From the IMG/VR virus record IMGVR_UViG_3300031785_000037, positions 1 to 29,777 of that record: DNA of 29,777 bases; one strand, written 5' to 3'. This document shows positions 1 through 25,890 of the stretch, piece after piece. How positions within the stretch are numbered: the first letter of the stretch is position 1; the number at the start of each line of letters is the position of its first letter. The notes beneath the pieces were generated by a model. That model saw only the letters and a program-made list of their open reading frames with translations, was not told the DNA's origin and made no database searches. The translations under genes and the position numbers were made by a program. Source of the stretch: a virus.

Positions 1-782
1 TCTGCGCCTCCTCCTTGATGCTGACCAACTTTAACTGTTATTGATTCTCCGGGGGTTACAGGAATATTATTCTTCCAACCTAGACCACCTCCTGCTCCTC
101 CAGCTTTTGTCATTTGATATGGATAATAAGTGCCTGGTGCGCCTCCGGCTCCTACTGCTACAACATGAACTGAAGTAACACCAGCTGGTACAACCCAAGT
201 GTGTGTTCCAGGAGTATCAAATAATACTCCACCTGATTTTATATATGATACTGAAAATGAAGAGTTTCTTAGCTGCTCAGCTCTTCCGTCCGTAACTTTA
301 AAAGCTATATTAAAAGATCCTCCACCTGAGTCGAATCCAGGTTGAGCATTTAATGAGTCTACACCTAACGGAGTAATTGTAAACTGACTGTTAGAATCTT
401 GGATTATTCTTGCGAGATACTGTGCAGAGTCTGCTGCAGTGTGTATGAAACGAGGAGCAAACCCATCAGAGTCTGCCCCATATAACTTAATGATTGTAGG
501 ATTACCTGGTGAGTCTAGAACATAGGCAGATTGTGTAAGTGGTGCTATAAAACGAGGAGTAGCATTAACTATTGACATTCTAAACCAACCGTCACCGCCC
601 CAAACATACATGTTGTCGTTATCAACAATGTAGCTCAGTTCGCCGGTGGTGTTCGATGATCCTGTTGGTAGATCTGTTTGAAATTGCTTAGTGCCTGAAG
701 TAGCAATGTCGGCGCCTAGTTTTTCCTTTGATAGTGTACCAGCTGCGCCTAATAATTTACCTAGATTTCTTCCTCTTGACAT
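1..782 (-). CDS. Fibre/adhesin protein with glycine-rich C-terminus, 3' partial
   Basis: This open frame starts with ATG at 782 and runs off the left edge after 260 codons. The N-terminus (MSRGRNLGKLLG) and the module ending near residue 75 (NMYVWGGDGWFRMSIVN) match the shared N-terminal module of the other fibre-like proteins in this window. A cadherin-like stretch follows at about residues 80-180 (ADSDGFAPRF, then TITPLGVDSL and FKVTDG). From about residue 190 comes a segment of the type TPGTHTWVVPAGVTSVHVVA, which recalls glycine-rich C-terminal domains of phage fibres. After it glycine-rich runs begin and continue past the edge. It probably sits at the tail or capsid surface and binds host structures; the receptor is unknown. 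Its start overlaps the stop of the 81-residue gene by 22 bases. Confidence 0.85.
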   Translation of the reverse strand, partial: MSRGRNLGKLLGAAGTLSKEKLGADIATSGTKQFQTDLPTGSSNTTGELSYIVDNDNMYVWGGDGWFRMSIVNATPRFIAPLTQSAYVLDSPGNPTIIKLYGADSDGFAPRFIHTAADSAQYLARIIQDSNSQFTITPLGVDSLNAQPGFDSGGGSFNIAFKVTDGRAEQLRNSSFSVSYIKSGGVLFDTPGTHTWVVPAGVTSVHVVAVGAGGAPGTYYPYQMTKAGGAGGGLGWKNNIPVTPGESITVKVGQHQGGGA

Positions 783-1006
783 GTTGTATCCTTAGAATCT
801 CTTCTATGGCAATCTAAAATTTTCGTACATAGATGGATAGCTTCATCGTATCCATCACGAAAACGATTCTTTCTGTTACCATAGCGTTTAAACCACTTTA
901 AGCTATTTATAACAGATGATCTCTTGTCTTCAGGAATTTCGAAGTTTCTTATTAGTTCTTCGTATTGGTAACGCCAATTTAATATTTCAGCCACCGAGTT
1001 GTTCAT
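761..1006 (-). CDS. Hypothetical protein, 81 aa
   Basis: A small charged protein (MNNSVAEILNWRYQYEEL start) rich in Arg, Lys, Glu and Asp, with two Cys near the C-terminus. No domain is recognised and no membrane segment is seen. ATG at 1006 is supported by a GGAG about 8 bases upstream. It overlaps the 3' end of the HAD phosphatase gene by 20 bases and the start of the partial fibre gene by 22 bases, so it is probably translationally coupled to both. A TATAAATA box lies inside it (904-911). Its function is unknown. Confidence 0.7.
   Translation of the reverse strand: MNNSVAEILNWRYQYEELIRNFEIPEDKRSSVINSLKWFKRYGNRKNRFRDGYDEAIHLCTKILDCHRRDSKDTTCQEEEI
904..911 (-). promoter_or_regulatory. Putative T4-type late promoter box (TATAAATA)
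   Basis: An exact match on the minus strand to the T4 late consensus TATAAATA, inside the 81-residue gene and about 120 bases upstream of the fibre start at 782. Function is inferred from the match and from the structural gene downstream. In AT-rich DNA one such octamer could occur by chance. Confidence 0.35.
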
Positions 1007-1565
1007 ACACCATTCTCCAATTTGACATTTTAGGGATACCCTCAGTATTTTCAGTTTTAATGTGAGGGTGTTTCATTAAGAGGGGTTGAAGACCAAACTC
1101 AGCACCTTGTACTGCGTTCTTAACTTTGTCCTCAATCCAATATGCACCTGGGTACCATGTAGCAAATTTACCCAAGATGTCATCTTTATCTGCACCTGTA
1201 TCTAGGTACACAAACTCATCGAAAACTTCTTTACCAAAAATGTTTTGAAGATTTTTAGTTCTTAATTCTTGTGTGTATCTGTTTAGAGATAGTGAAGTTA
1301 TAACTGTAAACTTATGACCAAACTCTTCGTGTATTTTTTTAACATATTTGACTGAGTCATATAGTGGAGGTAAGAAACCAATGTTTGAAGAGTTATTGAA
1401 CTCTAATACATATTCAAATATATCTGGCATATTGTATCGATCTGCTTGATCGTATACTCTAACATCTCCTTCAGCGAAGATATTCTTTTCTCTCATCATC
1501 CAAGCATCGAATGGATCTCTCCAGTTTAGTAAAACTCCATCACAATCTGTTAATATTATACTCAT
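987..1565 (-). CDS. HAD-superfamily phosphatase, 5'(3')-deoxyribonucleotidase-like
   Basis: At 192 residues it starts with the HAD motif I, TDCDGVLLNW (Asp7 as likely nucleophile, Asp9 as acid/base). Motif II is FTVITSLS (Thr90/Ser91), and a motif IV-like YWIEDKVKN carries an acidic pair (Glu145, Asp146) for Mg2+. The compact size, with a small cap between motifs I and II, fits the mitochondrial-type 5'(3')-nucleotidase group, which dephosphorylates (d)NMPs. That would suit a phage metabolic block containing a ribonucleotide reductase. Other HAD substrates cannot be excluded. A sigma70-like promoter lies just upstream (1588-1616). Confidence 0.8.
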   Translation of the reverse strand: MSIILTDCDGVLLNWRDPFDAWMMREKNIFAEGDVRVYDQADRYNMPDIFEYVLEFNNSSNIGFLPPLYDSVKYVKKIHEEFGHKFTVITSLSLNRYTQELRTKNLQNIFGKEVFDEFVYLDTGADKDDILGKFATWYPGAYWIEDKVKNAVQGAEFGLQPLLMKHPHIKTENTEGIPKMSNWRMVYEQLGG

Positions 1566-7912: not shown

Positions 7913-10129
7913 CTAGAAGTCTATCTCGCACGCTCCGCCGACACATGCTTCAGAAGCAATGGTGTCTGCGTCAGTGTAACGCTTTTCGGTTAAATCCTCT
8001 TTCCATTCTATTGTTTTAAAGTTTTTGTTTATTTTATTCCATTTGTGTAAAAGATAAGAATCCTTTAAGCAGTGTTCTGCTGTCTTTAAATCTCCTTTTA
8101 GATAGTTATCCGCAAAGTTTTGAAATCTTCTCACCCAATCTTTCTTTATTGCATTATCTGAAGTTTCAAGCGTAATATCCTCTCCCATTCCTTGAGCGGT
8201 AGCGCATGCCTGCCAGAGATTAGGAAATGCTGAGAGTGCATCTACGACAAGACCAGATGCAAATATTGCGGCAGTATCATATTTTTTTACCATTTCTTTT
8301 GCAGAAATAACAGCTGTGTTAGGAGCTTGATTGTAGTCTTTATCTCCTGTCATTGGAAGAAAAGAAATACCAGCAAAAGAGTTTCTATTTTCAAACACAT
8401 ATTTTTCTACTTGATCCCAATCATCTACAATAATAGTATTTGATACGTTGTGTCTAACTCCTTCATCTGCACATAGATCAATATTAGTACCGGCTTCTAC
8501 CCAATGTTTTTGTGCCAGTTTTACTTTTTCAAGATGAGATACTCCTAGGAGTGCATCTTTAAATATTGAACCTTTCTTTGGAAGAATTGGAAACGAAACA
8601 ACTACATCAGATCCAGTGGCAGACCATACTGAGTCTTCAACCATAAAAGGATTTGATTTTTGAATAGCTTGGGTAACTTCTGAATCTTTTGTCATCTGTA
8701 CATTTCGAATATACATTTGCGAATGTTCAGCATGTATTCCAGAACCAGTTTGAAGTAGAACTGAGGCATTTCCCGAAGGTTTCACGCACGTGGTTCTGGC
8801 CGCAGGATTGATTCCAATAGCTTCAGCGACTTCTCTATTAACTTCTTTAACAATTTTTGCTCCTTCTTCTAATACTTCAGGATCAAATAATACATCAGGG
8901 TTGTTCATCCAACCTGTAATAGATGCACCAATCAGTGCTTCTCTGTCAAAGATCTTTTTACTTGTATCACCAAGAAATTTAAAGTCTGTATATCCAGCTT
9001 GTAAAGTTCCTAAAATAGATGCTGCACGACACGCTTTAAAAAACTCTTCTTTTGACGTGCACTTACCGCCGTTTATTTCTGTTAAGTTGCATCCTTGCCA
9101 GCCAGATTTTCCTTTGATCTGTGGAAACATTCCGATCTCAACGCAAGGATTAGTAGTATGTTCTTTTGAATTTACAAAAACAAAACCAGGCTCACCAAAC
9201 TCTCTCACACTTTGCATAAGTTTATTAAACTGTTCTGGAGATGTTTCGTTTCTTACAATAACTGCAGAGTTGTTAGACCTACCTCTTTGAGGGTTATCCA
9301 TAAACCAGTTACCTGTTTTTGCATTCATCATCTCATCATCATCTGGAGAAAATAAACATATTGTTGCTGATCTACGAACACCACCACTTAACACTGCATC
9401 AGCAGTATACATAACAATATCATATACTTGAATAGGTTTAAGTGATATAGATCCCTTTTGATTCATGACCACAGCCTGTAACATGTGTTCTATCTTATCT
9501 AAAGCTAATCTCAACCCATCTGGTCCTGGTGCCTTAAATCCTCCAGAAATTTTTGATCCTTTTGGCCTGATCTGAGAAGTATCAAAGTATACTCTTCTAC
9601 CTTCATATTCAGGATATTTACCACCACCTATAAAATAAGATGAAAGAAGAACGTCCACAGCAGTCGCCCACCCTTCAATTGAATCTTCTACGATCCAACC
9701 TTTAGCTTGTTTCTTTCTTTCTTGAATCTTAGGTAATTTTTTAACGTGATGCTTCTGTACCGAAAAGCCAGCGCCTGCACCACAAAGAAGAATATAAAAG
9801 ACTTCTCCAAAAAATTCAGGCCTATCTGCATAAGAAGATGTACAGTTATACATCCTCATCTGATGCTTTAGTATTTGTTCACCACCAAACTGTAAAGCTC
9901 TTTGAGCTCCTAGTACATATTGATTTTTGTATGCCTCTCTGGCTTCTTCTACATATTCTGTTATTTTATTCATTTTTGTGGAATAGAATTTTTCGTGCAT
10001 TTCCATAACACGGTCCACGGCTTCGTCCCAGGTTTCATATCTATCATTATCATCATTAAACCTAGAGTAACCATCATAAAATTTTGCTTCGGACAAAAGC
10101 TGTCTGGTGTCAACAAACTGTGTTTGCAT
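7913..10129 (-). CDS. nrdJ: Adenosylcobalamin-dependent (class II) ribonucleotide reductase, monomeric RTPR type
   Basis: This 738-residue enzyme would make deoxyribonucleotides using adenosylcobalamin, supplying dNTPs for phage replication. Key residues are visible: Cys96 in MYNCTSSY, the thiyl-radical region NPCVE (Asn327, Cys329, Glu331), Cys347 in GCNLTEING, and the C-terminal redox pair Cys729/Cys734 in ACVGGACEIDF. Length and the 5-residue spacing of the C-terminal Cys match the monomeric Lactobacillus-type reductase (739 residues). It has no intein or split. Cobalamin must come from the host. A strong promoter lies upstream (10176-10204), and an acidic zinc-ribbon protein follows immediately. 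Confidence 0.95.
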   Translation of the reverse strand: MQTQFVDTRQLLSEAKFYDGYSRFNDDNDRYETWDEAVDRVMEMHEKFYSTKMNKITEYVEEAREAYKNQYVLGAQRALQFGGEQILKHQMRMYNCTSSYADRPEFFGEVFYILLCGAGAGFSVQKHHVKKLPKIQERKKQAKGWIVEDSIEGWATAVDVLLSSYFIGGGKYPEYEGRRVYFDTSQIRPKGSKISGGFKAPGPDGLRLALDKIEHMLQAVVMNQKGSISLKPIQVYDIVMYTADAVLSGGVRRSATICLFSPDDDEMMNAKTGNWFMDNPQRGRSNNSAVIVRNETSPEQFNKLMQSVREFGEPGFVFVNSKEHTTNPCVEIGMFPQIKGKSGWQGCNLTEINGGKCTSKEEFFKACRAASILGTLQAGYTDFKFLGDTSKKIFDREALIGASITGWMNNPDVLFDPEVLEEGAKIVKEVNREVAEAIGINPAARTTCVKPSGNASVLLQTGSGIHAEHSQMYIRNVQMTKDSEVTQAIQKSNPFMVEDSVWSATGSDVVVSFPILPKKGSIFKDALLGVSHLEKVKLAQKHWVEAGTNIDLCADEGVRHNVSNTIIVDDWDQVEKYVFENRNSFAGISFLPMTGDKDYNQAPNTAVISAKEMVKKYDTAAIFASGLVVDALSAFPNLWQACATAQGMGEDITLETSDNAIKKDWVRRFQNFADNYLKGDLKTAEHCLKDSYLLHKWNKINKNFKTIEWKEDLTEKRYTDADTIASEACVGGACEIDF

Positions 10130-10240: not shown

Positions 10241-13200
10241 TTATAATTTCACTTTTGAAGTAGGTGGAGTCTGTTCTCTACTATAAATAGCCTTTCCTAA
10301 AACGAAGCGAAAATTAGATATCTGTCCGTCCATTCCATAATAAGTGTTATAACCCGATCCACCTAGAGTAAAATGATATCCACTACCAGTTCCTAATACA
10401 TTATAAGCACCTTTAGTACCACCAGTAGATGCATACCTAATGTGTGGAGACTGATAGTGAGGACCTATCGTTCCACTACTTCCATTTACAAATCTACCAT
10501 TAATAAAGATTTCCATGTGACCGTTGTAACCTTGAGGGTGTTCTACTTGATCACCTTCATAGCCTCTTTGTTGCACAACAATGTGATACCACCTACCAGT
10601 CCTTATAGCGACAGAGTATGGAACTGATGTATCGTCATTTGATATAGTACCTTCTCTGTTTCCTAGAGTTCCACACTTTAACGGATAGTATGTCGTCTTT
10701 CCCGCTTGCGGCCACTTCGCTTGTTCGTATTCTATATAACCATCATCTTGGTTATTAATTCTTAAGTTAAAGTTACACCAGTCACTGAGAAACCAACCAT
10801 TTCCTGACATGAGGTGTTGAACCTGATTTGAATTATTGTACTCTTGCCAGTGTCGTCTTCTGTACCACATTTCTGCTGTCCACTCATAATCCCCGGATCC
10901 TGCAAGCTTACTTACGTTTATTACGTCACGTTGACTGGAACCAGGTGCTGTTCCTTCGAAGTTAACACTAGCATTACCTCTGTGTTCATTTTCTGATCTA
11001 GTCAACCAGAAAGGATCTCCAACATGTAAACCTAGAGTTCCTTTTACGTCGGTGTAACTAAATTCTGTCGAAGAGTTATCTGGAGAAGTTAGAAGATTTC
11101 CTCTCTGACATGTCAGAACTTGAGTTATAATTGGATCAGTAGTAGTCCCAGATTGATTAACAGCTCCAGTTGAAGCATCAACTAATTGTAACTCTGAGAA
11201 TATATCATGACTTTCTCCACATCTTAGTCTACCAGAAGTAACTCTAATGTCTGTCATATATCCAGTGAGTGGATAGTAAGCAGTACCGTTAGATCCAGCA
11301 GCATAAGTACTCGTATTATCATAGTCACCAAAACCTTGGCCTCCTATTGAGACAGTATATCCACCTTCAGGATAAGCAGTATTATCAGATCTCTGATACC
11401 TTCCTCTTTCTTTTCCATCAATGAAACATTCAACTCGATATAGACCAAAGAAATGTAAACATACGTGATGCCAGTTTCCATCGTTTAACAAGGTACTAAC
11501 AACCGGTGCATTGGTTGGACTCATTAACTGAATCCATAATTGATTATTATATCCGGTTTGATACTCAGTATTGTTAAACATTATATAGAGATTTCCATTC
11601 TCTACTTTTGTCTTCCAACCTAAGTCAGGAGAGCCTGTCTGACCTCCGCTTACTAATGAGAATAAAGGAGATCCACCAGATGCAGTATCTTTCATCCAAA
11701 AATCAACAGTATGATCATACCTCGACCAAGTTGTATTTTCTCCTTTGAAGTAAACAGGACTTGTTTCTATTCTATCGTTCACACCTCCAGGAAACTTTAA
11801 CATTGGTTCATTTCCACCCCAAGGATCGGTTGTATCTGTAGCAGCAGTAACGTTTCCTAAGACTTTACAACCATCTTTTATAGCCTTATTACCTTTGTCA
11901 ATAATATTAAGTTCTACGCCTCCTCTGTAATGAAACGTAGTTCCAGTTGAACTAGTTTTTATTGTGGGAGGACTAAAGCTAACTGTCCTGTCACACGTCT
12001 TTGTAATCTTAAGATCAGATATATGTCCACCTCTTATATCTGCGTCTCCAGCTCCGTACTTACAACCAAGGTATACTGTTCCAGAAGCGGATCCAAAAGC
12101 AGAAGCGTCTGTCCAGGTTCCTGCAAGTACACCTCGCTTAAAGACTCTTATAAGGTTCGAACTATTTCTGCTCACTGCAATGTGCACCCATTGGTTTGCG
12201 TCTCTTGTACCGTCCCAAAATCCTGTGATGCCACCACCGGTGTTGCCTGCGTGATAACCAAAGGCAAATCTTGTACCATCACTACCAAAAACAAATTTAT
12301 TGTCAGAGTCTCCAGCGTGGTGAAGAGCTGTCCACTTATTATCTACATATGATTGTCCATCACTTCTTATATAGACCCAAGCTTCTATGGTAAATTCACC
12401 AGTAAGATGAAAATCGTTACTTGCTGGTACTGTTACGTGACAAGGATTAGATGTTGCAGTGTGATCATGAAAATATACAGAACCGTTATGAAGAGAAGGT
12501 GCATATTCTTCTGTTGGCAAGAAACAAAAAGATGTCATTTCTGGAAGTGTCTTTCCACTGACAGCTTGTAGATCACCATAAGTTGATGAGTAGTCTTTTA
12601 ACTCGTTTCCAGCAAATAATAGTAACTTAGTTCCAGAGATACTTGTTAAGTTGTTTATTGTAGGTAAGAACTCATTACTATAAACTGCTGATCCACTTAC
12701 GACTCTAAAGTTTGAAAGCCAACCGTCCCATTTATTTACATTAGCTGCTGCATTATCAGCTCCACCCATCTGCCACTTTGTTGCTGTTGAACTTGGAATT
12801 CCAATATTAGCGAAGGCTGTACTATCTTTATCTGCTAATCCATCAAAATAGATTTTAAGATTTCCTGCATATCTAGTGACTGCTACGTGATGCCAATTAT
12901 TATCTAACACATCACAATTGCTAGTAACATCAGCACCTGTTCCAGAACCGTCATATCCATAAACAATTATTCTACCCTCATTGGTCAGGCCTATGCTTAA
13001 GAGATTGTGTTCGGATACTGCATCACCAGTTCTAAATATTAGACTAGTAGTATAAGTAAGAGTTTTATTGTCTTCCTGTCCACATATCCAAAACTCTATA
13101 CAAAAGTCGCCGGTTCCCCAACTCAAATGAGTATCAGGGGTCACTGGTTCTAAACAACGGTCACCAATAAAGTTAGCACTGTATCCGCCACTCGGTCTGT

Positions 13201-14471: not shown

Positions 14472-15485
14472 TTATCCCCTAAAGTCGTAATACTTACTAC
14501 TAGATGCAGCAGTAAAACCGTTATTTGACGGACCTATAAAAGTGTACTGTGTTGAATCTAAATTTGTATTGCTTCCTATATACGGTTGAGCATATCCTCC
14601 AGTAAAGTAATCATAACCATTAGTCATATCTCCGGAAATAATTATACCAGTTATAGTCCTAGGAGTTGTCCATATTACATCTCTGGTGACGTTGTTCCCC
14701 GAATTTGAAACATATATACTGTAGTACGTAGATCCTAAGTCGACACCAAACGTTGCCAAAGCTTCATCTTTCAAATACTTTCCAAAAAATCCTGATAATG
14801 CGCTACCGGTAACTTCGTATCTAACACCATAACCCCAACTAGAAGCTGTAATAGATGCTTCCGTAGCGAAAGCCGCGGGTTGGTTTATTGCTCCAGTACC
14901 ATCTAATATTGTCGCATGCCACACCGTATGAGCGTAACTTGAACTTGTTTGAGCTATTCTAAATCCATAACAGTTTGCAAGTCCAAACGCTAATGTGACA
15001 TTAGTGCTATTTGTTGACGTGTGTACACCATCAGTAGCGTGTGTTCTCAAAACAAACGATCCAGCATTTGATTCTGATGTACTAGGCGTCATTGTAAAAG
15101 TTCCGTTAGATTCAGCAATTGTGCACTGTTGCTGATTTGTTGGGTTTGTATCATACGCGTATGTAATCGGAAATCCGTCTGGATCATCAGCAGCAATTGT
15201 AAAAGAAGTGGCATTACCACTTGAGTTTAAGGAGTGTTCAGCCGGGGCGGTTGTGGTAATATCTGGCATTGCGTCTGGACCAGAGTTAATTCTATCCCAT
15301 TCGGTGCCGTCATATACGTATAGAGATTTGTTTGCTGTGACAAATTTTTGATCACCAACAGATCCTGTTCCAAGAGATGCTAGGTTAGTTATAGCTTCAG
15401 TTCCACCTACAGACTGACCTTCTGAAGCTTTTGCTAGTACACCCGTTTTCCCGAATGCTTTTGCAATATCTCGTGATCTTGACAT
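14472..15485 (-). CDS. Fibre/adhesin protein with unique C-terminus, 337 aa
   Basis: The shared N-terminal module is present (MSRSRDIAKAFGKTG, LYVYDGTEWDRINSG), followed by a cadherin-like domain (AADDPDGFPITYAYDTNP, TMTPSTSESNAGSFVL, THATDGVHTS) to about residue 170. The C-terminal half (NCYGFRIAQTSSSYAH onward) is unlike LamG or the glycine-rich types: rich in Ser, Thr, Tyr and Gly, probably all-beta, and ending SKYYDFRG. It probably binds a host surface structure. A TATAAATA box lies 21-28 bases upstream of the ATG, and an AGGAG precedes the start. Confidence 0.85.
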   Translation of the reverse strand: MSRSRDIAKAFGKTGVLAKASEGQSVGGTEAITNLASLGTGSVGDQKFVTANKSLYVYDGTEWDRINSGPDAMPDITTTAPAEHSLNSSGNATSFTIAADDPDGFPITYAYDTNPTNQQQCTIAESNGTFTMTPSTSESNAGSFVLRTHATDGVHTSTNSTNVTLAFGLANCYGFRIAQTSSSYAHTVWHATILDGTGAINQPAAFATEASITASSWGYGVRYEVTGSALSGFFGKYLKDEALATFGVDLGSTYYSIYVSNSGNNVTRDVIWTTPRTITGIIISGDMTNGYDYFTGGYAQPYIGSNTNLDSTQYTFIGPSNNGFTAASSSKYYDFRG

Positions 15486-15504
15486 TTCATCTCCTGTTTT
15501 TTAT

Positions 15505-15795
15505 CTATTTATATAGATTTGTTTCTAACTTTTTTAGTCTTTTGTCGAGATCATCAATCTTTTTTGTAACATGTGGATACTTTTTTCTCCAAGCGTTTTC
15601 ATCTGTCTTAAACCAAGTCCAACCCCATCTATCAACAAGATATTTTAAACTATTGTCAAATATTCTATAAGCCCACAGACCTATTCTTGTTCCTTGAAAC
15701 CACGCTAAGAAAGCAGCACCAAACAGAGATCCAGCAATTGCTGTATAGATCCATAAGCGATCAGTCGCCATTCTTTCAATCATTTCCCACATCAT
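15505..15795 (-). CDS. Membrane protein with C-terminal coiled coil, 96 aa
   Basis: A hydrophobic segment at about residues 13-33 (LWIYTAIAGSLFGAAFLAWF) is followed by an amphipathic aromatic region (YLVDRWGWTWFKTDENAW) and a basic/acidic coiled-coil-like tail (VTKKIDDLDKRLKKLE). Its start overlaps the stop of the lipoprotein gene by four bases. Placement right after the spanin-like pair suggests a lysis role such as holin or antiholin, but this is inference. The last codons overlap the TATAAATA box that serves the next gene. Confidence 0.7.
   Translation of the reverse strand: MMWEMIERMATDRLWIYTAIAGSLFGAAFLAWFQGTRIGLWAYRIFDNSLKYLVDRWGWTWFKTDENAWRKKYPHVTKKIDDLDKRLKKLETNLYK
15506..15513 (-). 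promoter_or_regulatory. Putative T4-type late promoter upstream of the 337-residue fibre
   Basis: An exact TATAAATA on the minus strand. It overlaps the stop codon of the 96-residue membrane protein gene and lies 21 bases upstream of the fibre ATG, which is well placed for a late transcript start. This is one of the best-positioned late-type boxes in the window. Confidence 0.6.
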
Positions 15796-16187
15796 TCTAA
15801 GTCTGTTTCTATAATTTTACTAGGTGCAACTGATTTTTCATAGTACAGTATAACATTATTTTGCTGTTCAATAAATCTTTTTATCTGTTCCATATTAAGA
15901 GCAAGTGCTTCAAAGCTTTGTGCAGTCATAGCATAAAGTACAAATTCTCCTTGAGTAGTTTTAATTTTCTCAATAACTTCCTGTAAATTTGCTTCAGTAA
16001 CAATTACAATATCAGCATCTTTCATTTGAACAGGATTGGGTCGAGGAACAACCTGTATGACAGGTGCTTCTATCTTAGGTGTGTCTATTACAGTTGGTAC
16101 TGTTACTATTTCTTTAGTTGGGATTTGACTGCATGCACTTACCAGTAGCGCAGCCGATATCGCCAAAAAACTTATCAACTTCTTCAT
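15792..16187 (-). CDS. Outer-membrane lipoprotein, o-spanin (Rz1-like) candidate, 131 aa
   Basis: A type II signal peptide with lipobox is clear: MKKLISFLAISAALLVSAC, with Cys19 as lipidation site. A Pro-rich stretch (IQVVPRPNPVQ) follows, then a helical domain (LYAMTAQSFEALALN, MEQIKRFIEQQ) ending in YYEKSVAP. The start lies inside the upstream coiled-coil gene in the +1 frame, overlapping by 74 bases, as in lambda Rz/Rz1-type pairs. Together they could fuse inner and outer membranes at lysis. It is longer than lambda Rz1 (60 residues), so a non-lysis lipoprotein role remains possible. GAGG precedes the ATG. Confidence 0.8.
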   Translation of the reverse strand: MKKLISFLAISAALLVSACSQIPTKEIVTVPTVIDTPKIEAPVIQVVPRPNPVQMKDADIVIVTEANLQEVIEKIKTTQGEFVLYAMTAQSFEALALNMEQIKRFIEQQNNVILYYEKSVAPSKIIETDLE

Positions 16188-16545
16188 TTATTTTATCCTC
16201 AGTAGCCTTAGGGTCAGCAAGGGCGTTTTTAATAATATCTGTGTTAGCCAGTAGCTTAGCTATGGCTTCGTTCTTTTCAACAGATTGTTTGAGATTTAAG
16301 CTAAGTTCGTCATTAAGCTCTTGTTGCTTCTTTAGTTGAGCCTTAAAGTTTTCTATCTCTTCAGTTACTTTAAGTCTGTACTGTTCAAACTCTGCGGCTG
16401 TTTGTTTTTGTGCCGTTTCAAGTTTAGCATTGTTTGCGGTGAGTAAACTAATTCTAGTCTGTGTATCAACATAGTACTTATAACCGAACCAACCTACTCC
16501 TCCTATAATTCCTACTATAATAATCGTTAAATATAGCCTAGCCAT
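16114..16545 (-). CDS. Membrane-anchored coiled-coil protein, i-spanin (Rz-like) candidate, 143 aa
   Basis: One N-terminal membrane helix (residues 4-23, LYLTIIIVGIIGGVGWFGYK) is followed by a long, charged coiled coil at about 30-95 (ETAQKQTAAEFEQYRL, EEIENFKAQLKKQQELNDE). A Cys-containing tail (GCATGKCMQS) ends it. N-in, C-out topology, periplasmic coiled coil and partial overlap with a +1-frame lipoprotein gene match i-spanins. The match is of architecture, not sequence. It overlaps the upstream 133-residue gene by 8 bases. Confidence 0.8.
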   Translation of the reverse strand: MARLYLTIIIVGIIGGVGWFGYKYYVDTQTRISLLTANNAKLETAQKQTAAEFEQYRLKVTEEIENFKAQLKKQQELNDELSLNLKQSVEKNEAIAKLLANTDIIKNALADPKATEDKINEEVDKFFGDIGCATGKCMQSNPN

Positions 16546-16939
16546 CTTTGTCGTTTAAAAAAGCTTTAAACCCTCTTCTTACAACAGGTGGTCTATCTTT
16601 TCTATATCTCTTATCAGTTACATCAGTTGTTTTAAATCTAGGTCCCATGTTTGGAGCCATATCTACTCCACCGTGACCAATAGCATTTCCTGGTAGATCT
16701 TCATGTACATATTTAAAATCTAGAGCATCACTCGGTCTGACAGTCTTAGATTTTCCTTTGTATATAACAAAGGCTTTTCCTTTATGAATAAAGTGCTTGG
16801 CGTTCTTTTTTATCCAGTCTTTAGAACTTTGTTCAGTTCCTCTATGTACAATTGACTTGGTTTTCGGTACACCTCTTTGATAAACAAAATGAGTCTTTGG
16901 ACCTTTTCTGTTTTCGTTAGGATCATATGCTCCTCTCAT
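16538..16939 (-). CDS. Basic hypothetical protein, probably structural, 133 aa
   Basis: The protein is rich in Lys, Arg, Gly and Pro: MRGAYDPNENRKGPKTHF, VYQRGVPKTKSIVHRG, KHFIHKGKAFVIYKGKSK and NMGPRFKTTDVTDKRYRK. It has no membrane segment and no recognised domain. The start is supported by GGAGGAG, and a TATAAATA box lies about 40 bases upstream. It overlaps the 196-residue gene by four bases and the i-spanin candidate by eight. A virion component is plausible from composition and context only. Confidence 0.7.
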   Translation of the reverse strand: MRGAYDPNENRKGPKTHFVYQRGVPKTKSIVHRGTEQSSKDWIKKNAKHFIHKGKAFVIYKGKSKTVRPSDALDFKYVHEDLPGNAIGHGGVDMAPNMGPRFKTTDVTDKRYRKDRPPVVRRGFKAFLNDKDG

Positions 16940-17526
16940 TCTATTAGCTCCTCCAAAGCGAAATATATCTTTTGATTAGTATTTATATGTGTTCCCTCAT
17001 AGATATTTAAACCAAAAATATCTCCTACTGGATACGCATTATCACTTACTCTCACTTTATCACCTCTTATAACTAAAGGCTCATACGTACTATTGACTAT
17101 CTTATCATACTTTACTTTGTACAATCCAGGAGATACTCTTCCATCATTCAACACGTACCATTCATTTTTTTCAGCAAGAAAGTCATAACTTTGAAATCCT
17201 GTTTTTTCTAATATCTGTTCTAATTGAGGATCTCTTAAGTTACCGTCTTCTTTTATAAGATACAAAGCTGCACCGTACGAAGCGATAGAAGAACTTCCTC
17301 CTGGAACTTTAGCCATGAGTTTCTTTATATTAAATACAAGTTTGTGGAAAGGTGTATAAGCTGACTTATCAGCAGAATCTACGATCTTATATGATTTATT
17401 TCTATTACCTTTTGCATCTATGATACCGCGCTTAAAAGCATCTGTCTTTTCAAATGGAGTTACTAATAAAGATATGAATCTAAACGTGTATACTAAATCT
17501 CCGGCTCTCTTTAATAATCCAACCAT
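16936..17526 (-). CDS. Conserved T4-like marine phage protein, probably structural, 196 aa
   Basis: The N-terminus MVGLLKRAGDLVYTFRFISL and the segments KTDAFKRGIIDAKGN, SAYTPFHKLVFNIKKLMAKV and PGGSSSIASYGAALYLIKE form a pattern I associate with a widespread protein in the structural region of marine T4-like phages. The C-terminus (VSPGLYKVKYD, VRVSDNAYPVGDIFGLNIYE) looks beta-rich. Its function is unknown. It is coupled tightly to neighbours on both sides. Confidence 0.75.
   Translation of the reverse strand: MVGLLKRAGDLVYTFRFISLLVTPFEKTDAFKRGIIDAKGNRNKSYKIVDSADKSAYTPFHKLVFNIKKLMAKVPGGSSSIASYGAALYLIKEDGNLRDPQLEQILEKTGFQSYDFLAEKNEWYVLNDGRVSPGLYKVKYDKIVNSTYEPLVIRGDKVRVSDNAYPVGDIFGLNIYEGTHINTNQKIYFALEELIE
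16980..16987 (-). promoter_or_regulatory. Putative T4-type late promoter upstream of the 133-residue gene
   Basis: An exact TATAAATA on the minus strand inside the 3' end of the 196-residue gene, about 40 bases before the ATG at 16939. It could drive the 133-residue gene, the spanin-like pair and the 96-residue membrane protein. Confidence 0.45.
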
Positions 17527-17527
17527 T

Positions 17528-17896
17528 TTAAATTTTCCTCAGCTTTTCTATGACATGCTTATCCATTTTGACATTTGTGTATTCATTATTTTTTATATGT
17601 TTTAGGAACACTAAAAATGGTTTTAGAACTTGCCATTGTTTTTCGTCGAACTTATACTCCATAATTCTTAGCGTTGGTTTCGTGTCAAAAACATTAAAGA
17701 CAACAATCATGTGATTTAGTATCAATCTTTCTGATACGTTACCAGATTCATGATATTTGTTCACAAGTCTCTTTATATACTTAAACCGATTTAAGTCTTC
17801 ATAAAACTCTTCGGCGTCCATGCAGATAGGATTGTAATAATGCTTTGCAGCATAGATCACAATATTACTATCATTTAACTCATCAAATAACTTCAT
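17528..17896 (-). CDS. Conserved phage hypothetical protein, 122 aa
   Basis: It starts MKLFDELNDSNIVIYAAKHY and contains MDAEEFYEDLNRFKYIKRLV, RLILNHMIVVFNVFDTKP and a closing helical region rich in Lys. The pattern recalls a T4-like phage family of unknown function found close to the 196-residue family. Composition suggests a soluble alpha-helical protein. The stop lies one base before the start of the next gene. The upstream gap is 19 bases, with GAGG near its 5' end. Confidence 0.72.
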   Translation of the reverse strand: MKLFDELNDSNIVIYAAKHYYNPICMDAEEFYEDLNRFKYIKRLVNKYHESGNVSERLILNHMIVVFNVFDTKPTLRIMEYKFDEKQWQVLKPFLVFLKHIKNNEYTNVKMDKHVIEKLRKI

Positions 17897-17915
17897 AATA
17901 ATTTAAATTAAAACC

Positions 17916-19268
17916 TCAGTCCTTAGGACCAACAGCTCCAGCTTTTCCTATTGGTGCAGGATTAACTGGTTTTTTGTCACCAGCAGTGTTATCCGTATGT
18001 CTATATTTAGGTCCGTTTACACCAGCAGTATACGCTTTGAATGTTTTTGGAATAACAGAGTTAGTGTCTGCAAACTCTGGCATTTGAGGTTCATGCATTT
18101 TTACAAATTCTTCTTCACCCTTACGAGTTGATAGCTGCTTTGAAAATGTATCTCTGGTATCATCACCACCTGCATGAGGTGACTTCTTCATTATATCTTT
18201 AGTTGGCTTAGGAACAGGTGCTATCGCATTTTCAGTTATGATAGTCTCCTGCTTCTCTTTTAGTTTCAACAACCAATTTTCTTTATTAATACCTTCAGCT
18301 ACTCTTTTCTTCACTGGCTCCATTCTTATAACCTCCTTTCCACCGACATTCATTTTAACCGGTCTCTTGTCAGCACTTTTTACTTGTTTGTCTTCATACT
18401 TTACGATCTCACTACCTCTTCCAACCTTTTTAGGTTCTTCTTTTTTCTTCTTCATAAAAGGCATACTCGGTAGTGTCACTGCGGCCTTTCCTTTTGCAGA
18501 ACTCTGCGCTGTCTTAGAAAGTTTTTTCATGAAAGCAGCTTGCTTATTCTCTTTTACATTTTCTTCATGCTCTTCTGGTTTGTCGTGATGTTCATCAACT
18601 TTTTTCTTTTTCTTATTAAGTGGCTGACCTGTTGAATAATGATAATCATCAGTTTCCTCTTTACGAGACTTTCTTCCACTTCCACAAGATGCCTCATCTG
18701 TTGTTGAAGAGTTAACTGCTTTAGCAGTATCCTTCTTAATTGTAACAGGATGTTTCTTACCACCAAAGTTGAAGTGTGACTTACCAGACTTATGTGCTGC
18801 AGCAGCAGCGCCCATGAACGCAGTTCTTTCTTTAGTATCTGTAATTTCTTCTGGAACTACAAACTGAACTGACTCGTCCATCTTTGGTTTTTCATGTACA
18901 TAACCCATTTTAGCATACTTGTTATGGTCTTCTGGAGTTTTAGCTGTAACTTCTTTTCCAGTCTTAGGGTCATACATCTTATGAGGATACTCAACCTTTT
19001 CTTTTACGTCTTTCTCAGCAACGTCTTTTGTAGCAGGTTTTGCCTTGTCGTCCCTCATAGTGAGTTTCTCTTTATTGTTCTTTATGAACTCTAGAGCAGA
19101 TTCTCTGTCGTCAAAAGATCCGGCTTCTGTATCATTATCAGTCATGACACAAAACTTCCCGTCCTTTGTAACGATTCTTGCTTCTTCGAGTTCTTCTTTT
19201 TGGCCTATGCCTAAAACCTTGAGATAGGCCGCTTGCATGTTATCATGATTTATGTCTGAATGATCCAT
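17916..19268 (-). CDS. Large low-complexity charged protein, probably virion-associated, 450 aa
   Basis: Lys/Glu/Asp/Pro-rich and predicted largely disordered, with Lys runs (KKKKKVDEHHDK, MKKKKEEPKKVG) and Met/Ala-rich patches (RTAFMGAAAAAHKSGKSHF). It carries several I/L-x-E sites of the kind cut by T4 prohead protease, notably LEE before Ala30 and ITE within ETIITENAIAP. That composition suits an internal or scaffold-like head protein, but no homology is recognised. It follows the coiled-coil membrane protein by 12 bases and precedes conserved virion-region genes. Confidence 0.7.
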   Translation of the reverse strand: MDHSDINHDNMQAAYLKVLGIGQKEELEEARIVTKDGKFCVMTDNDTEAGSFDDRESALEFIKNNKEKLTMRDDKAKPATKDVAEKDVKEKVEYPHKMYDPKTGKEVTAKTPEDHNKYAKMGYVHEKPKMDESVQFVVPEEITDTKERTAFMGAAAAAHKSGKSHFNFGGKKHPVTIKKDTAKAVNSSTTDEASCGSGRKSRKEETDDYHYSTGQPLNKKKKKVDEHHDKPEEHEENVKENKQAAFMKKLSKTAQSSAKGKAAVTLPSMPFMKKKKEEPKKVGRGSEIVKYEDKQVKSADKRPVKMNVGGKEVIRMEPVKKRVAEGINKENWLLKLKEKQETIITENAIAPVPKPTKDIMKKSPHAGGDDTRDTFSKQLSTRKGEEEFVKMHEPQMPEFADTNSVIPKTFKAYTAGVNGPKYRHTDNTAGDKKPVNPAPIGKAGAVGPKD

Positions 19269-19644: not shown

Positions 19645-21279
19645 CTATACTGGAATGATTGCAAATCTACCAGGTGCTACTCTTCTCCAGCCAGCAATAT
19701 CTGTTTCAGGTGCACTACCACTATATGGATTTGCTGTTGTTGAATTATGATCGTAGTTTCCTACTCCAGCGTCATCACCCCATTCTGTCTCAGTTCTTCC
19801 CGGAGAAGGACCATCAACATTATAAGCAAGTGCTGTATTCATTCCACTATTCGTTATACTTGCGTCTGACTTTACGTATCCAGATCCACCACCACCTGGG
19901 CCACCAGCGTAGTTATTAGGAGCTCCTGATCCACCACCGTAGTATCCACCGCCGCCACCAGATGGTGAGTATACTCCAGTTCTATTAGAAGGAGAGCCAC
20001 CAAATATTTTATCACCTGCGGACTTAGTTCCAGAACCGTATGATCCTCCTCCTGCGGCACCACCAGCAGACTGTGTCGCGCCACCGCCACCTCTTGATGC
20101 GCCAGAGCCTGATCCACTTGTTCCACCACCTGATCCACCACCACCTTGTTGACCGTATCCGCCTCCACCTCCACCAGCGATTAATAGTGATGCAGTATGT
20201 GCTGCATGAACGTCAGAAAATTCTTTTCCTAGGAATATACCAGTGAGTCCACCACCAGCTCCACGACCATGTTGATGACCACCATTGTTTGCTCTAGCTG
20301 CATGACCTCCGCCGCCGAATGATGCTGGAGCACCATGACTGTTTCCACTTCCGGTGCCGAACGCACCACCTTGTCCTACGATGATAGTGTAGTATTGTCC
20401 TGCTGTAAACTCCATTCTTGCGTATGTGTATCCACCAAATCCACTCCAAGCACTTAAACCTGCATCAGTATCAGTACCACTACCAGCTACACCATCTGAA
20501 CTTGTTGATCCAGCAGCTCCCCACATCTTTAAGTCAGCAGTAAAGGTTGTGCTTGGTAGTAACCAGTACTCTCCAAACTTGTTTAAGATTTGCGTTGTTC
20601 CATTATCAACAATCGTATCGCCTATACCTGATTGTCCATCAACACCATAATTGTAGTTAGTGCCATAAGTATCTCCCCAGAATCCAGTTGAAGCAGCACC
20701 TTTCTTGAATATAGTAAACTTAGAGTAAGTAATACTAAATATAGTTGAAGCAGTTGCGACACGAGCACCGTCTGAAGCAAGTATTCTAAAACTTACATTA
20801 GTGTTCGCGTTACTCTCTCCACTCATAATATTTGGTGTAACTCTAAACACACCTGCAGAGGTTTGAGAAACACTGTCTATTATATTGTTTGATGATGGGT
20901 GTTGATCAAAATCATAAGTAATAGGAAAACCATCAGGATCTACTGCGTTCACATTAAGAGTAACTCTTTGAGAGTCTAATGTTGTTAAATTTGCATCGAA
21001 ACTAATATTCTGAGACAATGCTATTGGTGATGCAACAACACTTCCGCCGCTGTCCCACTGAGGTGGACCATCAATGCCTGACAGTACTCTATCCCAACCA
21101 GTTCCGTTGTAGAGATACAAGCTCTTTTGACCAGCAACAAACTTCTGATCAGCCTGTTGTCCAGATCCCAGACCAGTCGTATCGGAAGTTATTTCTTTCT
21201 TTTGGACTCCTTCAACGTTGTCTGCAGAAAGTGTAGTCTTTCCACCTAATAAGTTTGATAGGTTTCTAGCATTACTCAT
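19645..21279 (-). CDS. Fibre/adhesin with ALK-type glycine-rich domain, 544 aa
   Basis: Residues 1-75 are the shared fibre module (MSNARNLSNLLGGKTTLSA, LYLYNGTGWDRVLSG), then a cadherin-like domain (NAVDPDGFPITYDFDQHP, RVTPNIMSGESNANT, ILASDGARVA). From about residue 225 (YWLLPSTTFTADLKMWGAAG) the protein becomes glycine-rich. It has GGYTYARMEFTAGQYYTIIV, ASFGGGGHAARANNGG and SLLIAGGGGGGYGQQGGGG, which matches the order of elements in the glycine-rich domain of ALK/LTK-type receptors. T4-type gp38 adhesins also use polyglycine sheets. It probably binds host receptors at a fibre tip. It overlaps the 75-residue gene upstream by 8 bases. Confidence 0.88.
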   Translation of the reverse strand: MSNARNLSNLLGGKTTLSADNVEGVQKKEITSDTTGLGSGQQADQKFVAGQKSLYLYNGTGWDRVLSGIDGPPQWDSGGSVVASPIALSQNISFDANLTTLDSQRVTLNVNAVDPDGFPITYDFDQHPSSNNIIDSVSQTSAGVFRVTPNIMSGESNANTNVSFRILASDGARVATASTIFSITYSKFTIFKKGAASTGFWGDTYGTNYNYGVDGQSGIGDTIVDNGTTQILNKFGEYWLLPSTTFTADLKMWGAAGSTSSDGVAGSGTDTDAGLSAWSGFGGYTYARMEFTAGQYYTIIVGQGGAFGTGSGNSHGAPASFGGGGHAARANNGGHQHGRGAGGGLTGIFLGKEFSDVHAAHTASLLIAGGGGGGYGQQGGGGSGGGTSGSGSGASRGGGGATQSAGGAAGGGSYGSGTKSAGDKIFGGSPSNRTGVYSPSGGGGGYYGGGSGAPNNYAGGPGGGGSGYVKSDASITNSGMNTALAYNVDGPSPGRTETEWGDDAGVGNYDHNSTTANPYSGSAPETDIAGWRRVAPGRFAIIPV

Positions 21280-21499
21280 CTTGTTCCTCTTCTTCTTTAC
21301 CTCTTAGTTTTAGTTGCAGTGCTTTTCTTATGTCAGACTTTTGTACTCTTTCTAAACTATTAATCATATCAACTTTTCTTACAATCTTTCGAAGATCACG
21401 CTTTAAAGAACCGGGATTGTCTGTTTGCATATACAGTTTAGGTAGACCTTCTATGTCTACTGCGTAGTGTGCTTCTACAAATTCTTTAAATTTTTTCAT
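21272..21499 (-). CDS. Small protein with capsid-targeting-like N-terminus, 75 aa
   Basis: It begins MKKFKEFVEAHYAVDIEG, which resembles the T4 internal-protein targeting peptide (MKTYQEFIAEA) with a possible prohead protease cut after Glu9 (FVE before Ala10). The rest is basic and helical (RDLRKIVRKVDMINSLERV, IRKALQLKLRGKEEEEQDE). The two fibre genes around it do not share this start. It could be a small internal head protein or a fibre-associated chaperone. It overlaps the 544-residue fibre start by 8 bases. Confidence 0.7.
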   Translation of the reverse strand: MKKFKEFVEAHYAVDIEGLPKLYMQTDNPGSLKRDLRKIVRKVDMINSLERVQKSDIRKALQLKLRGKEEEEQDE

Positions 21500-21502: not shown

Positions 21503-24500
21503 TTATCCTTTAAATGATTCTGTTGGCGGAGTAAAGTTGGCAGAATATAATGCTTGTCCTTTAACAATTCTAAGATTAGAAATATATCCTCTATATTGGT
21601 GACTGATACCAGTATAGTCCCACAATCTTCCTATTACAGTTGGACTATTACCGCTGTATATCGAAGTAAAAGTTCCATTACCTATATAATTACCATTCTT
21701 ATATAATGTTATGTCATTACCACTTTTTGCAATAGCTATATGAGCCCACTCATTTAATACATTAGTTACTGATACGCTGAAGTATGTTGAACCACTACTA
21801 CCACCATCTGTACTCCAGTATACTTGAAAATCTGATGCACTAATACTAAAATGATATTCTCTTGCAGAAGCCGTGCCTTTTGAGAGAAATACATTGTTTT
21901 GTGAATTAAATGAAGTTGGATATAACCATGCTTCTACAGTGTAATTACCACCATATATTTGATGTTCAGAAGAAGCCGCAACCTGCAAGTAATCATTATC
22001 ACCATTGGGAAAATAAACTGAGTTCATTCCATACTTAGGAATAATCGTACCAGAAGCAGTAGAACCTACTGAAGTAATAGTATGTCCAGTAGCAGAACCT
22101 TCTGTAGTTTTTGAAGAATGATGACATGCAAGAAGTTTAGTATTTGATGCTGTAGCAGTAGGTGTTGTACCGTCTGGTTTTTCCATTCCAGAATTAGTTT
22201 GAGTAAGTGTTACTGGTCTTGAAATATACGGATAACGAGCTAAACCTTTACTGATTCTAAAGTCATGCATGTGTCCGCCTAAACTCCAAGTTGTATTATT
22301 ATTATATCTAGATGCCAATCTTACAGTTGTTGAAGTAATATTTACAGTACTTGTAGAAGTTCCTTGAAGTACACCATTTCTGTAAAGAGAATGAACACCA
22401 CTCTGTCTTTGCAAAACAACATGGCTCCATTCATTATCTGGCACTACTGGACTAAACGAAACTAAGGGAGGGTCTGAATTTGTAGGCCCTCCTCCCATGT
22501 CCTTTGATACGTTGATACCCGAAGTACCATTAGCTGCGATTGAGGACCAGAAACCCTTGTAATTGGCATTGCCGCCAGTAGGATATACCCATGCTTCGTG
22601 CGTATGATCTTCAAGGCCGGAAATAGGATTGTTTATATCGACGTAGTCGTTACTTCCGTCAAAATATATTGTGTTCTCTGAAAAGTGTTGTTGACCAGAT
22701 GAAGCTACTGCTCCGTCTCCTATAGTAAAATTACTGGTCTGTGCCTTGTCTATGATAGAACCGTCTGTACCTTTTATATGAAGTGACGTTCCAGCAGATG
22801 AAACAGGAGCAGTCGGAACCGACGGTGATGAGTTTCCGCTTAGTTTTACAGTTAAATCAGATATGTGACCTTCAAGTCCTAACCCCAAAGCAGGATTATA
22901 ACCAGCGTTACCAATTACGGGTCTGTTCGCGCCAGTTAAGTAATTATTACTGTCAGAATATGTACTACCTGTTTGAGTACCATTTACATACATTTTTGTA
23001 CTTCCACTTACTCTTGTAAGAGTTAAATACGACCAAGCCTTTGCAGGAATAGCAGAAGAGCCAGTAATTTGAGCACCATTTACGTGCAGTATAGGAACGC
23101 CGGTTGCAAGATAAATGTTGACGTAACTACCATTGGTCCCTGCTGGACGCCAGTCTATCAATACATCATCACCAACCAGTGCTGTAGGATACACCCACAT
23201 AGAAATTTCAAAATCTGAAGTTCCTAGGGTAGGAGATGTTGGTAATGTTAAATAGTCGCTAGAAGGATTAATCAATATAGATCCACCGTGTTCAGTTTCG
23301 TCGTATGGCATATTATTATATGGAGCAAAAGGACTTGATTCCATATCACCATAAGGAGTTAATGATAAACTTTGACTAGAGTTATCGGCAAAAGTTAATA
23401 CGCTGTTACAGGTTAATAATTTAGTATTTGCTATAGCTGTAAGACGTTGACTAGGAACTGCAAAGTTAGCAGAATATACACATGTACCAACTACTATTCT
23501 AAAATCTGACACATGGCCCTTCATTTCTTTTGAACTACCATAACCTGCTGGAGGTCGACCTATTTGTATAAATGCACTGCTATATGTGTAAAATTGAGTG
23601 CTTCCTGTATTAGTCGCAAGAACATTGCCGTCAACAAAAGCTCTTATTGTTGTGCCATCGCAGGACCATGCTAAATGATACCACCTGCCTACTTCAGGAG
23701 TAAAATTCATTGTTATATTTTGACCTCCGCCCCATTCAAATTTTAAGGTACTTGAAGTATTAAAATAACACATGTAGTTAATGTTACTCCAACTAAAAGT
23801 GCCATTATCATTCGAAAATAAGTATCTCCCATTTGTACCTGGAGCATCAGTAAAATTATACCACCCTTCTACAGTCCAATTAGTATTATTAGCTAAATTA
23901 AGGGTTGAAGTAACTTCTGATTTTATATAATCATCAGTACCGTCAACAAAGTGTGCACTGTATCCGCCGTGACGATATGGAGAAAATGCACCGGCTTTTA
24001 TATCTCCAGCCGTCGTTATAGTATGATTACTAACAGAAGCATCTGTAATGTCATCATTATCTCCTACACCTGTAGCTGCAGCTAACACTTGTGTACTTTT
24101 AGAGTCAGGGATTACTGTTACAAAATCTAAAGTAAAGCTAGATACTTGAGGTAGAATGTTAATACCGTCAGTGGCCCTGAAAGTTATAGATCCAGTATGT
24201 GTTCCTGGACCGACCTCTGCCTGAGTCTTAGGAGTAATCGTGAACACGCTTGAGTCTTGACTAATAGTTGCTATACTATCCATTGATCCTCCAATAACGT
24301 GGCTATACGTTATAGGTAAACCTTCTGGATCTGTAGCTCTTAAAGTTATAACTGTAGGACTTTGCGGACTGTCTGCATCTAGAGTATATGATGAATTAGG
24401 TTGATACCCCGAAGTCCATGTAGGAGTGGTGTTAATAAGAGCGATGTTATACCAACTAGTTCCATTCCAAATGTACAATCGATTATTTCCTGAAACATAT

Positions 24501-24643
24501 GCTTGTTCTCCAATAACAGAACCTACACCTAAAGAATCAACTCCAGAATATTCTTCTGTACCCGCGATAGCAAGTGAAGATGCTGGAATTTGAGAGCTAC
24601 CGGGTGATAATAGATTAGCTAAGTTTCTGTTGTTTGATGCCAT
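21503..24643 (-). CDS. Giant LamG-domain fibre/adhesin protein, 1046 aa
   Basis: The same plan as the 1210-residue protein. Shared N-terminal module (NRNLANLLSPGS, RLYIWNGTSWYNIALIN), cadherin-like domain (RATDPEGLPITYSHVI, FTITPKTQAEVGPGT, RATDGI), then four LamG-like jelly rolls at roughly 225-405, 435-615, 650-815 and 870-1045. LamG signatures include WTVEGWYNF, FEISMWVYP, HTHEAWVYP and YTVEAWLYP, with closing strands such as ISNLRIVKGQALYSANF. The LamG units are only moderately alike, which suggests old duplication or exchange. It probably binds surface glycans. Confidence 0.9.
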   Translation of the reverse strand: MASNNRNLANLLSPGSSQIPASSLAIAGTEEYSGVDSLGVGSVIGEQAYVSGNNRLYIWNGTSWYNIALINTTPTWTSGYQPNSSYTLDADSPQSPTVITLRATDPEGLPITYSHVIGGSMDSIATISQDSSVFTITPKTQAEVGPGTHTGSITFRATDGINILPQVSSFTLDFVTVIPDSKSTQVLAAATGVGDNDDITDASVSNHTITTAGDIKAGAFSPYRHGGYSAHFVDGTDDYIKSEVTSTLNLANNTNWTVEGWYNFTDAPGTNGRYLFSNDNGTFSWSNINYMCYFNTSSTLKFEWGGGQNITMNFTPEVGRWYHLAWSCDGTTIRAFVDGNVLATNTGSTQFYTYSSAFIQIGRPPAGYGSSKEMKGHVSDFRIVVGTCVYSANFAVPSQRLTAIANTKLLTCNSVLTFADNSSQSLSLTPYGDMESSPFAPYNNMPYDETEHGGSILINPSSDYLTLPTSPTLGTSDFEISMWVYPTALVGDDVLIDWRPAGTNGSYVNIYLATGVPILHVNGAQITGSSAIPAKAWSYLTLTRVSGSTKMYVNGTQTGSTYSDSNNYLTGANRPVIGNAGYNPALGLGLEGHISDLTVKLSGNSSPSVPTAPVSSAGTSLHIKGTDGSIIDKAQTSNFTIGDGAVASSGQQHFSENTIYFDGSNDYVDINNPISGLEDHTHEAWVYPTGGNANYKGFWSSIAANGTSGINVSKDMGGGPTNSDPPLVSFSPVVPDNEWSHVVLQRQSGVHSLYRNGVLQGTSTSTVNITSTTVRLASRYNNNTTWSLGGHMHDFRISKGLARYPYISRPVTLTQTNSGMEKPDGTTPTATASNTKLLACHHSSKTTEGSATGHTITSVGSTASGTIIPKYGMNSVYFPNGDNDYLQVAASSEHQIYGGNYTVEAWLYPTSFNSQNNVFLSKGTASAREYHFSISASDFQVYWSTDGGSSGSTYFSVSVTNVLNEWAHIAIAKSGNDITLYKNGNYIGNGTFTSIYSGNSPTVIGRLWDYTGISHQYRGYISNLRIVKGQALYSANFTPPTESFKG

Positions 24644-24645
24644 CT

Positions 24646-25890
24646 CTACGCTCCTATCACTGATGCAAAATCAGCTATAACAGCATCACCACCACCAAAA
24701 GATATTGGATATACCGCTACTGCCGCCACATCAATTTTCCAAATACTGTGATTCCCACTTCCACCTGATACACCTGGAATAGTATATACATGTGGTGCGC
24801 CTCCAAAGAATGTTATCATGTTATTAGCGTTAGAATAGAACTGAGTTCGTCCTGAACCACTCCAGTTTGGTTTTAATTGAAAAGCCAATCCATTTCCTCC
24901 AACTTCTTTACACCAGATAACGGATGCATTGCTAGAGTCTATAGCATAAACAATATACTTATCCTGCATGTAGTTAGTACCTGCTCCTGGATGTCCATAT
25001 TCACTCAAGTCGGCATATGGGTAATTACCTCTACTATTGGTAAAACTGTTACCGCCATCATTTGAAGTGTACATATTCATTTCATGTATGGTATTGCTTT
25101 GAAATCTTTGCATACCGTCAATAAAATTAATTGTAGTTCCATTCTTGTCTCTTATTGACATTCCATAACCTAAACTTAAAGTTGTTGGAAATCTCATAGC
25201 CCATACTATAAAGTTTTCTCCAGCACCTGGATCAAAATCAAAATCCGGAAGTCCAGTAAATTGTATGTAATTCCCTCCACCGTCGACTCGAAGTCCAGAT
25301 CGGGAAATAGTTGAATGAGATTCAGATGTTGTTCCATTAGTAGTTAGTGAAGTACCTGCATATTCTTTAATTGTAGTCCCATCGGCCCATTGTGCCCACA
25401 CAGCATTGGAGAAACTTAATGTCATAGTTGAGTTTTTTGATATTTTATATAAACCATCACTAGCTATTGTTCTCAAAGTAAAACTTCCTTCATGAGCAGA
25501 ATTTGTTGATGGAGTGACTGTTGTAACACTTGAGTCTTGACTGATCGTAGCTTGTTGTTGGTTTGACGGAGTTGCGACATATGAGTAGTCAATAGGAAAT
25601 CCTTCAGGATCTGTAGCAGGATGATTAATAGTAGTAGGTGTTCCGTCACCTGAAAGAGTATACGCTGCATCTGGTTCGGTTGACCAAGTTAAAGTTTCAT
25701 CAGGACCGGTAAAGAATCTTTCCCACTTCGTTCCGTCCCATATGTATAATGAATTTAAACTTTCTACAATTTTAAGATCACCTACAGCATTTCCACTTGT
25801 AGGAAGAGCAGCTTTATTTGCAACTGTACCTGGCGCAGCTCCAGATTGTTGAGAAAGTTGTTTTAAAAAATCAGAAAGTTTATTTGCCAT
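24646..25890 (-). CDS. Fibre/adhesin protein, 414 aa
   Basis: The shared module (MANKLSDFLKQLSQ, SLYIWDGTKWERFFTG) and cadherin-like domain (PATDPEGFPIDYSYVATP, SQDSSVTTVTPSTNSAHE, RTIASDGLYKIS) occupy about 1-165. The C-terminal region (AQWADGTTIKEYAG onward) contains FIVWAMRFPTT and a Gly/Asn/Ser-rich beta-like tail ending in IADFASVIGA. It may be a single divergent jelly roll, but I cannot assign it firmly. GGAG precedes the start. It directly follows the 622-residue fibre gene, with no gap. Confidence 0.85.
   Translation of the reverse strand: MANKLSDFLKQLSQQSGAAPGTVANKAALPTSGNAVGDLKIVESLNSLYIWDGTKWERFFTGPDETLTWSTEPDAAYTLSGDGTPTTINHPATDPEGFPIDYSYVATPSNQQQATISQDSSVTTVTPSTNSAHEGSFTLRTIASDGLYKISKNSTMTLSFSNAVWAQWADGTTIKEYAGTSLTTNGTTSESHSTISRSGLRVDGGGNYIQFTGLPDFDFDPGAGENFIVWAMRFPTTLSLGYGMSIRDKNGTTINFIDGMQRFQSNTIHEMNMYTSNDGGNSFTNSRGNYPYADLSEYGHPGAGTNYMQDKYIVYAIDSSNASVIWCKEVGGNGLAFQLKPNWSGSGRTQFYSNANNMITFFGGAPHVYTIPGVSGGSGNHSIWKIDVAAVAVYPISFGGGDAVIADFASVIGA

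Follow-up and report, generated by a model that had tools for sequence, protein, structure and literature searches.

The adhesin-like genes and their ends

The window, by which is meant the whole 29,777-base stretch of DNA analysed, is the complete record of an uncultured virus, and the record is a genome fragment. At least seven adhesin-like genes with a common front are present in this virus, every one on the minus strand, and a first-pass annotation that had named these seven as a family was right about each of them. The family is nonetheless larger: the closest contig (G001, IMGVR_UViG_3300026081_000341) carries nine members, six of them syntenic with g2 to g7, together with a complete g1 and two extra genes (397 and 579 aa) past the point where the window ends.

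Gene g1 (1–782) belongs to the family but is truncated by the end of the window, so that only 260 N-terminal residues are encoded, against 454 aa for the full homologue in G001. These residues comprise an N-terminal tail, a GTxW beta element, a cadherin-like domain and a glycine-rich end that Pfam assigns to Gly_rich_2 (gene portion 3–782). Tail, GTxW element and cadherin-like domain recur in g2 (10241–13873, 1210 aa) ahead of three matches to LamG, a ConA-like lectin domain, in g6 (21503–24643, 1046 aa) ahead of four, and in g5 (19645–21279, 544 aa) ahead of an ALK/LTK-type glycine-rich domain. Gene g3 (13883–14110) encodes 75 aa made up of the tail and GTxW element, with no other domain. Both g4 (14472–15485, 337 aa) and g7 (24646–25890, 414 aa) continue through a GTxW element and a cadherin-like domain into C-termini to which Pfam gives no class and for which AlphaFold models of the full proteins, good in the fronts, have pLDDT mostly below 50; g4 has the common tail, and g7 begins with a helical N-terminus instead. 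The C-termini thus diverge as had been claimed, with Laminin_G_3, ALK_LTK_GRD and Gly_rich_2 as the binding types recognized by Pfam and two ends unclassified. The glycine-rich ends of g1 and g5 have counterparts in the gp38 adhesins of T-even phages and in the ALK glycine-rich domain; the fronts differ, and the likeness is one of domain type only. The LamG parts match PHROGs labelled virion structural, baseplate wedge, tail fibre, and head and packaging; the virion annotation of these PHROGs rests on LamG itself, a promiscuous domain.

The open reading frames of the array are intact and most have a Shine-Dalgarno-like site. The T4 late-promoter motif TATAAATA occurs 6 times in comparison with 3.3 expected, which does not demonstrate enrichment. 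Adjoining the array on the same strand is a separate repeat-rich, fibre-like gene, g8 (25891–27759), which family profiles place outside the family. It contains several repeats of ~70 residues and has 94% amino acid identity in G001, and only 76% of it aligns to the portion compared of a second related contig (G002, IMGVR_UViG_3300012920_000202).

A composite front and a cadherin-like spacer

Do the seven genes really begin in the same way? Profiles trained on six N-termini at a time (~78 residues) and scored on the seventh recover each held-out member at E-values of 7e-11 to 4e-15 (38–52 bits), while the best of 1000 shuffles reaches at most 14.5 bits, so the N-termini align far above background. 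The fronts are therefore homologous, as proposed, but they are not built on the single 75-residue module first described. They are composites, in which a weakly conserved tail of the type MSRxRxLAKLLGxxGxL (9–17 bits in six genes) precedes a strongly conserved GTxW beta element of ~42 residues that is recovered on its own at held-out E-values of 3e-8 to 1e-15. When the front was split in this way, profiles detected no common tail in g7. AlphaFold models of g4 and g7 begin with a short helix, followed by the few short strands of the GTxW element and then by a cadherin-like beta sandwich; Foldseek of these two models found nothing recognizable for the GTxW element.

The cadherin-like domain reported after the module in every gene except g3 holds up equally well. 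It is present as one domain per protein, shows by eye a DP(D/E)G-type motif of the calcium-binding set of cadherins, and is recovered across the six longer genes by leave-one-out profiles at E-values of 4e-11 to 2e-27, far beyond shuffles. Against the PDB, the front profile hits protocadherin-15 (E 4e-13), and AlphaFold assigns pLDDT above 90 to most of the domain, which Foldseek relates to cadherin/Ig domains (E 8e-6); sequence profile and fold match thus both place it in the cadherin-like/bacterial Ig superfamily. Pfam Big_9 matches 3 of 16 family members, at best with 2.5e-5.

Outside the array, fibres of Vequintavirinae hold the GTxW element as internal copies; three copies lie within a single fibre protein of Enterobacter phage F1M1E, and likewise within a single one of Serratia phage ChuuTotoro. 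It also accounts for the sole match of g7 to cultured phages by tblastn, 35 residues long, in fibres of Enterobacter/Pantoea phages. The full front is absent from cultured Melnitz, Mosig and HTVC008M, and a search of one genome per prokaryote species returned no relatives of g2. A relationship of the GTxW element to Mtd_N was considered and found weak: hhalign to an Mtd_N-looking fibre N-terminus gives a probability of 13%, the GTxW-containing pieces of the window have no Pfam match above cut-off to Mtd_N or DUF2793, and DUF2793 appears with E 0.1 in a Melnitz baseplate protein only. A weak GTxW-like element (E 6e-4) was seen at the C-terminus of a gp9/10-like baseplate wedge protein of Melnitz (MZ577096.1, 85327–86211; L151, 36328–37212), possibly a clue to the origin of the module or to its docking place.

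Exchange of ends and the genomic slot

The backbone genes of G001 are mostly 98–100% identical in nucleotide sequence to those of the window, and constant-front, swappable-end evolution is directly visible between these near-identical genomes. Only 12% of g5 aligns to G001, everything past about codon 49 having been replaced. The junction falls within the module, about 145 nucleotides into the gene and just before the LYxYNGTxW strand, and homology returns at 19638, just past the g5 stop at 19645. Of g6, only 46% aligns: the front, the first LamG region (to 23313) and the last ~85 nt are kept in G001, 21587–23313 cannot be aligned in DNA, and much of the LamG region has been replaced. The ends of the two extra G001 genes include one that is glycine-rich and one that looks SPRY-like by eye (L112, 6683–7876), the latter without a match in Pfam or the PDB. 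As the swapped versions of g5 and g6 come from one metagenomic contig each, they might conceivably be assembly chimeras; against this, their reading frames are intact, and the window-type g5 is independently present in G002.

G002 is more distant, with conserved backbone genes mostly at 72–94% nucleotide identity. It retains g2, g3 and the window-type g5, gives g4 another end, and replaces g6 and g7 by a single 405-aa gene whose front is of the family type. Gene g2, found in the window, G001 and G002, is a mosaic that records exchange among the three lineages: over codons 961–1080 the window has a dS of 0.12 to G002 and of 0.37 to G001, whereas over codons 481–600 dS is 0.12 between G001 and G002 and 0.25 between the window and G001. 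Between the window and G002, dN/dS in g2 is 0.06 in the module and cadherin-like parts and 0.10–0.33 in the LamG parts, so that constraint on the front exceeds that on the LamG region. For g3 the same two genomes give 89% amino acid identity and a dN/dS of 0.09, which makes it a maintained gene rather than debris. Intragenomic gene conversion was rejected as the cause of the similarity among module genes, which are joined by no long near-identical repeats.

Many window genes have homologues in the cultured methylophage Melnitz at 33–60% amino acid identity and in largely the same order, and these shared core genes and gene order identify a Melnitz-like T4-type phage (Kyanoviridae). The search of viral contigs for the module that had been suggested yielded, beyond G001 and G002, seven more contigs (G032, G034 and G038–G042, near-duplicates among them) with three or four such genes each. 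In this distant clade a different N-terminus of ~70 residues leads into the GTxW element, the cadherin-like domain and, where inspected, LamG tandems. The 145-kb contig G034, whose neck protein is 62% identical to its Melnitz counterpart, has three members flanked by homologues of two adjacent Melnitz genes; in Melnitz itself the same place holds no such genes. They lie just before the homologue of Melnitz gene 17095–18519, and in the distant clade module genes follow the homologue of Melnitz gene 14914–16866. The fourth G034 member has a tail-fibre gene on one side and the neck genes gp13/gp14 on the other. In the window group, g5 to g8 are likewise flanked by genes matching parts of both Melnitz genes, one of which is broken into small genes: on one side a minus-strand gene (17916–19268) matches Melnitz gene 17095–18519 over residues ~63–133, and on the other small minus-strand genes (27966–29513) match portions of Melnitz gene 14914–16866. 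Most of the array lies in this shared slot, bounded by homologues of the two adjacent Melnitz genes, and further along.

What the array may do

The position of the fourth G034 member and the PHROG annotations of the LamG parts point to virion adhesins. The favoured reading, to which we give a probability of about 0.68, is that the array of this T4-like marine phage (uncultured, Kyanoviridae, Melnitz-related) encodes fibres associated with its tail or baseplate, in which the constant front docks, the variable end binds, and specificity is changed by recombination. Each protein starts with a short tail and passes through the GTxW beta element and the cadherin-like spacer to an end that varies and is often lectin-like; g3 is the front alone. 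The front would dock the protein onto a common acceptor, the end would bind host-surface glycans or proteins, and recombination that preserves the start of a gene while importing a new remainder would alter specificity. We infer docking via the tail and/or the GTxW element. The GTxW element lies internally in the fibres of other phages, Vequintavirinae among them, and follows another N-terminus in the distant clade, so it may not be the part that attaches. It may instead be a structural element, with docking left to the tail or to the ~70-residue N-terminus. The first-pass reading of binding domains displayed through one common attachment site is partly borne out: the shared front, the diverging and swapped ends, the tighter constraint on the front of g2 and the place of the fourth G034 member speak for it. 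The attachment site cannot simply be equated with the GTxW element, and display on the virion is probable.

Could the proteins sit elsewhere on the virion, or not on it at all? Head fibres or capsid decorations, attached to the capsid by the front, would anchor the phage on surfaces or glycans in place of a role as tail receptor-binding proteins (RBPs). They would suit those LamG parts that match PHROGs labelled head and packaging or virion structural protein, as well as the location of the array outside the pelagimyophage host recognition cluster, which runs from vrlC to gp14 (PMC7029224). The head annotation of these PHROGs is by similarity, however, and a G034 member occupies a tail-fibre position, between tail-fibre and neck genes, which makes this alternative unlikely. 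Quite unlikely, too, is an array that is mostly a reserve of specificity cassettes, with one or a few members on the virion and the others serving as recombination donors. The many genes, several in tandem, and the ends swapped between genomes at junctions in the shared front are what such a reserve would produce, but every member is intact, dN/dS across g2, g3, g4, g5 and g7 is 0.06–0.43, and the lack of long near-identical repeats between paralogues means that recent internal transfer of cassettes is not seen in the window. Most improbable are non-virion late proteins, released or held at the surface of the lysing cell for aggregation, capture of new hosts or exclusion of competitors. Their appeal is that members are scattered among spanin, endolysin, RNR and PhoH genes and are not confined to the structural block; a homologue does lie inside the structural block of G034, and the fibre architecture and adhesion domains fit virion RBPs better.

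If the genes encode virion adhesins, a T4-like phage of marine bacteria might display about nine of them at once through one docking piece, with g3, the docking piece alone, plugging the shared site, serving as its adaptor or regulating stoichiometry there. We regard this as doubtful; if it were true, the result would be a combinatorial, evolvable adhesion coat. The conserved stand-alone g3 is an unusual part of the array and might show how such a common site is controlled. Host-range change in phages of streamlined ocean bacteria is poorly understood, and the array offers a concrete locus with a defined junction, at which genomes that are nearly the same elsewhere trade binding ends. Metagenomes could thereby be used to follow changes of specificity in wild phage populations.

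The strategy itself is named and has precedents, though the first-pass annotation knew of no name for it. Multi-RBP, or branched, adsorption complexes in which several RBPs share conserved N-terminal assembly domains are described in Ackermannviridae and Alcyoneusvirus (PMC10253068, PMC11414711), and the array has two of their hallmarks: several genes with homologous N-termini in one genome, and unrelated ends that recombination within the conserved front has exchanged. The resemblance is close to TSP1-4 of the Ackermannviridae phage CBA120, which also have exchangeable ends (PMC10253068, PMC8825819, PMC11414711). Those proteins, however, combine T4 gp10-like XD with enzymatic beta-helix domains, whereas here the tail, GTxW element and cadherin-like domain carry LamG, glycine-rich or unclassified ends; in the seven genes Pfam found no T4 gp10-like XD or gp9_10 N-terminal domain, and Pfam and PHROGs no beta-helix depolymerase or lyase domain. 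RaK2 and K64-1 (Alcyoneusvirus) assemble nine tail-fibre proteins into long fibres, a number near that of the array (PMC10253068), but these are jumbo Klebsiella phages and seven of the nine proteins are depolymerases. In T4-like marine phages (pelagimyophages, cyanomyophages), tail fibres and concanavalin A domains are encoded in a hypervariable host recognition cluster, which lies between vrlC and gp14 (PMC7029224), whereas most of the array is in a different slot. LamG domains similar to those of g6 occur in virion structural proteins of cyanophages, 226 phage records matching, although among the matches listed the coverage is of the LamG region and not of the cadherin-like and GTxW front. 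No paper describing such a cadherin-like array was found. The strategy is known; what is new, as far as these searches reach, is a front of tail, GTxW element and cadherin-like domain, together with the member count, a slot of its own and a module gene that stands alone.

Two observations concern neighbouring genes. The ribonucleotide reductase at 7913–10129 has its best cultured match in Rhizobium phage RHph_I1_18 (62%), as opposed to the marine Melnitz-like backbone. Small genes at 21272–21499, 28315–28932 and 28929–29513 start with MKxFKEF or MKTFREIRE, similar to the leader found on internal head proteins of T4, and they perhaps encode packaged internal proteins.
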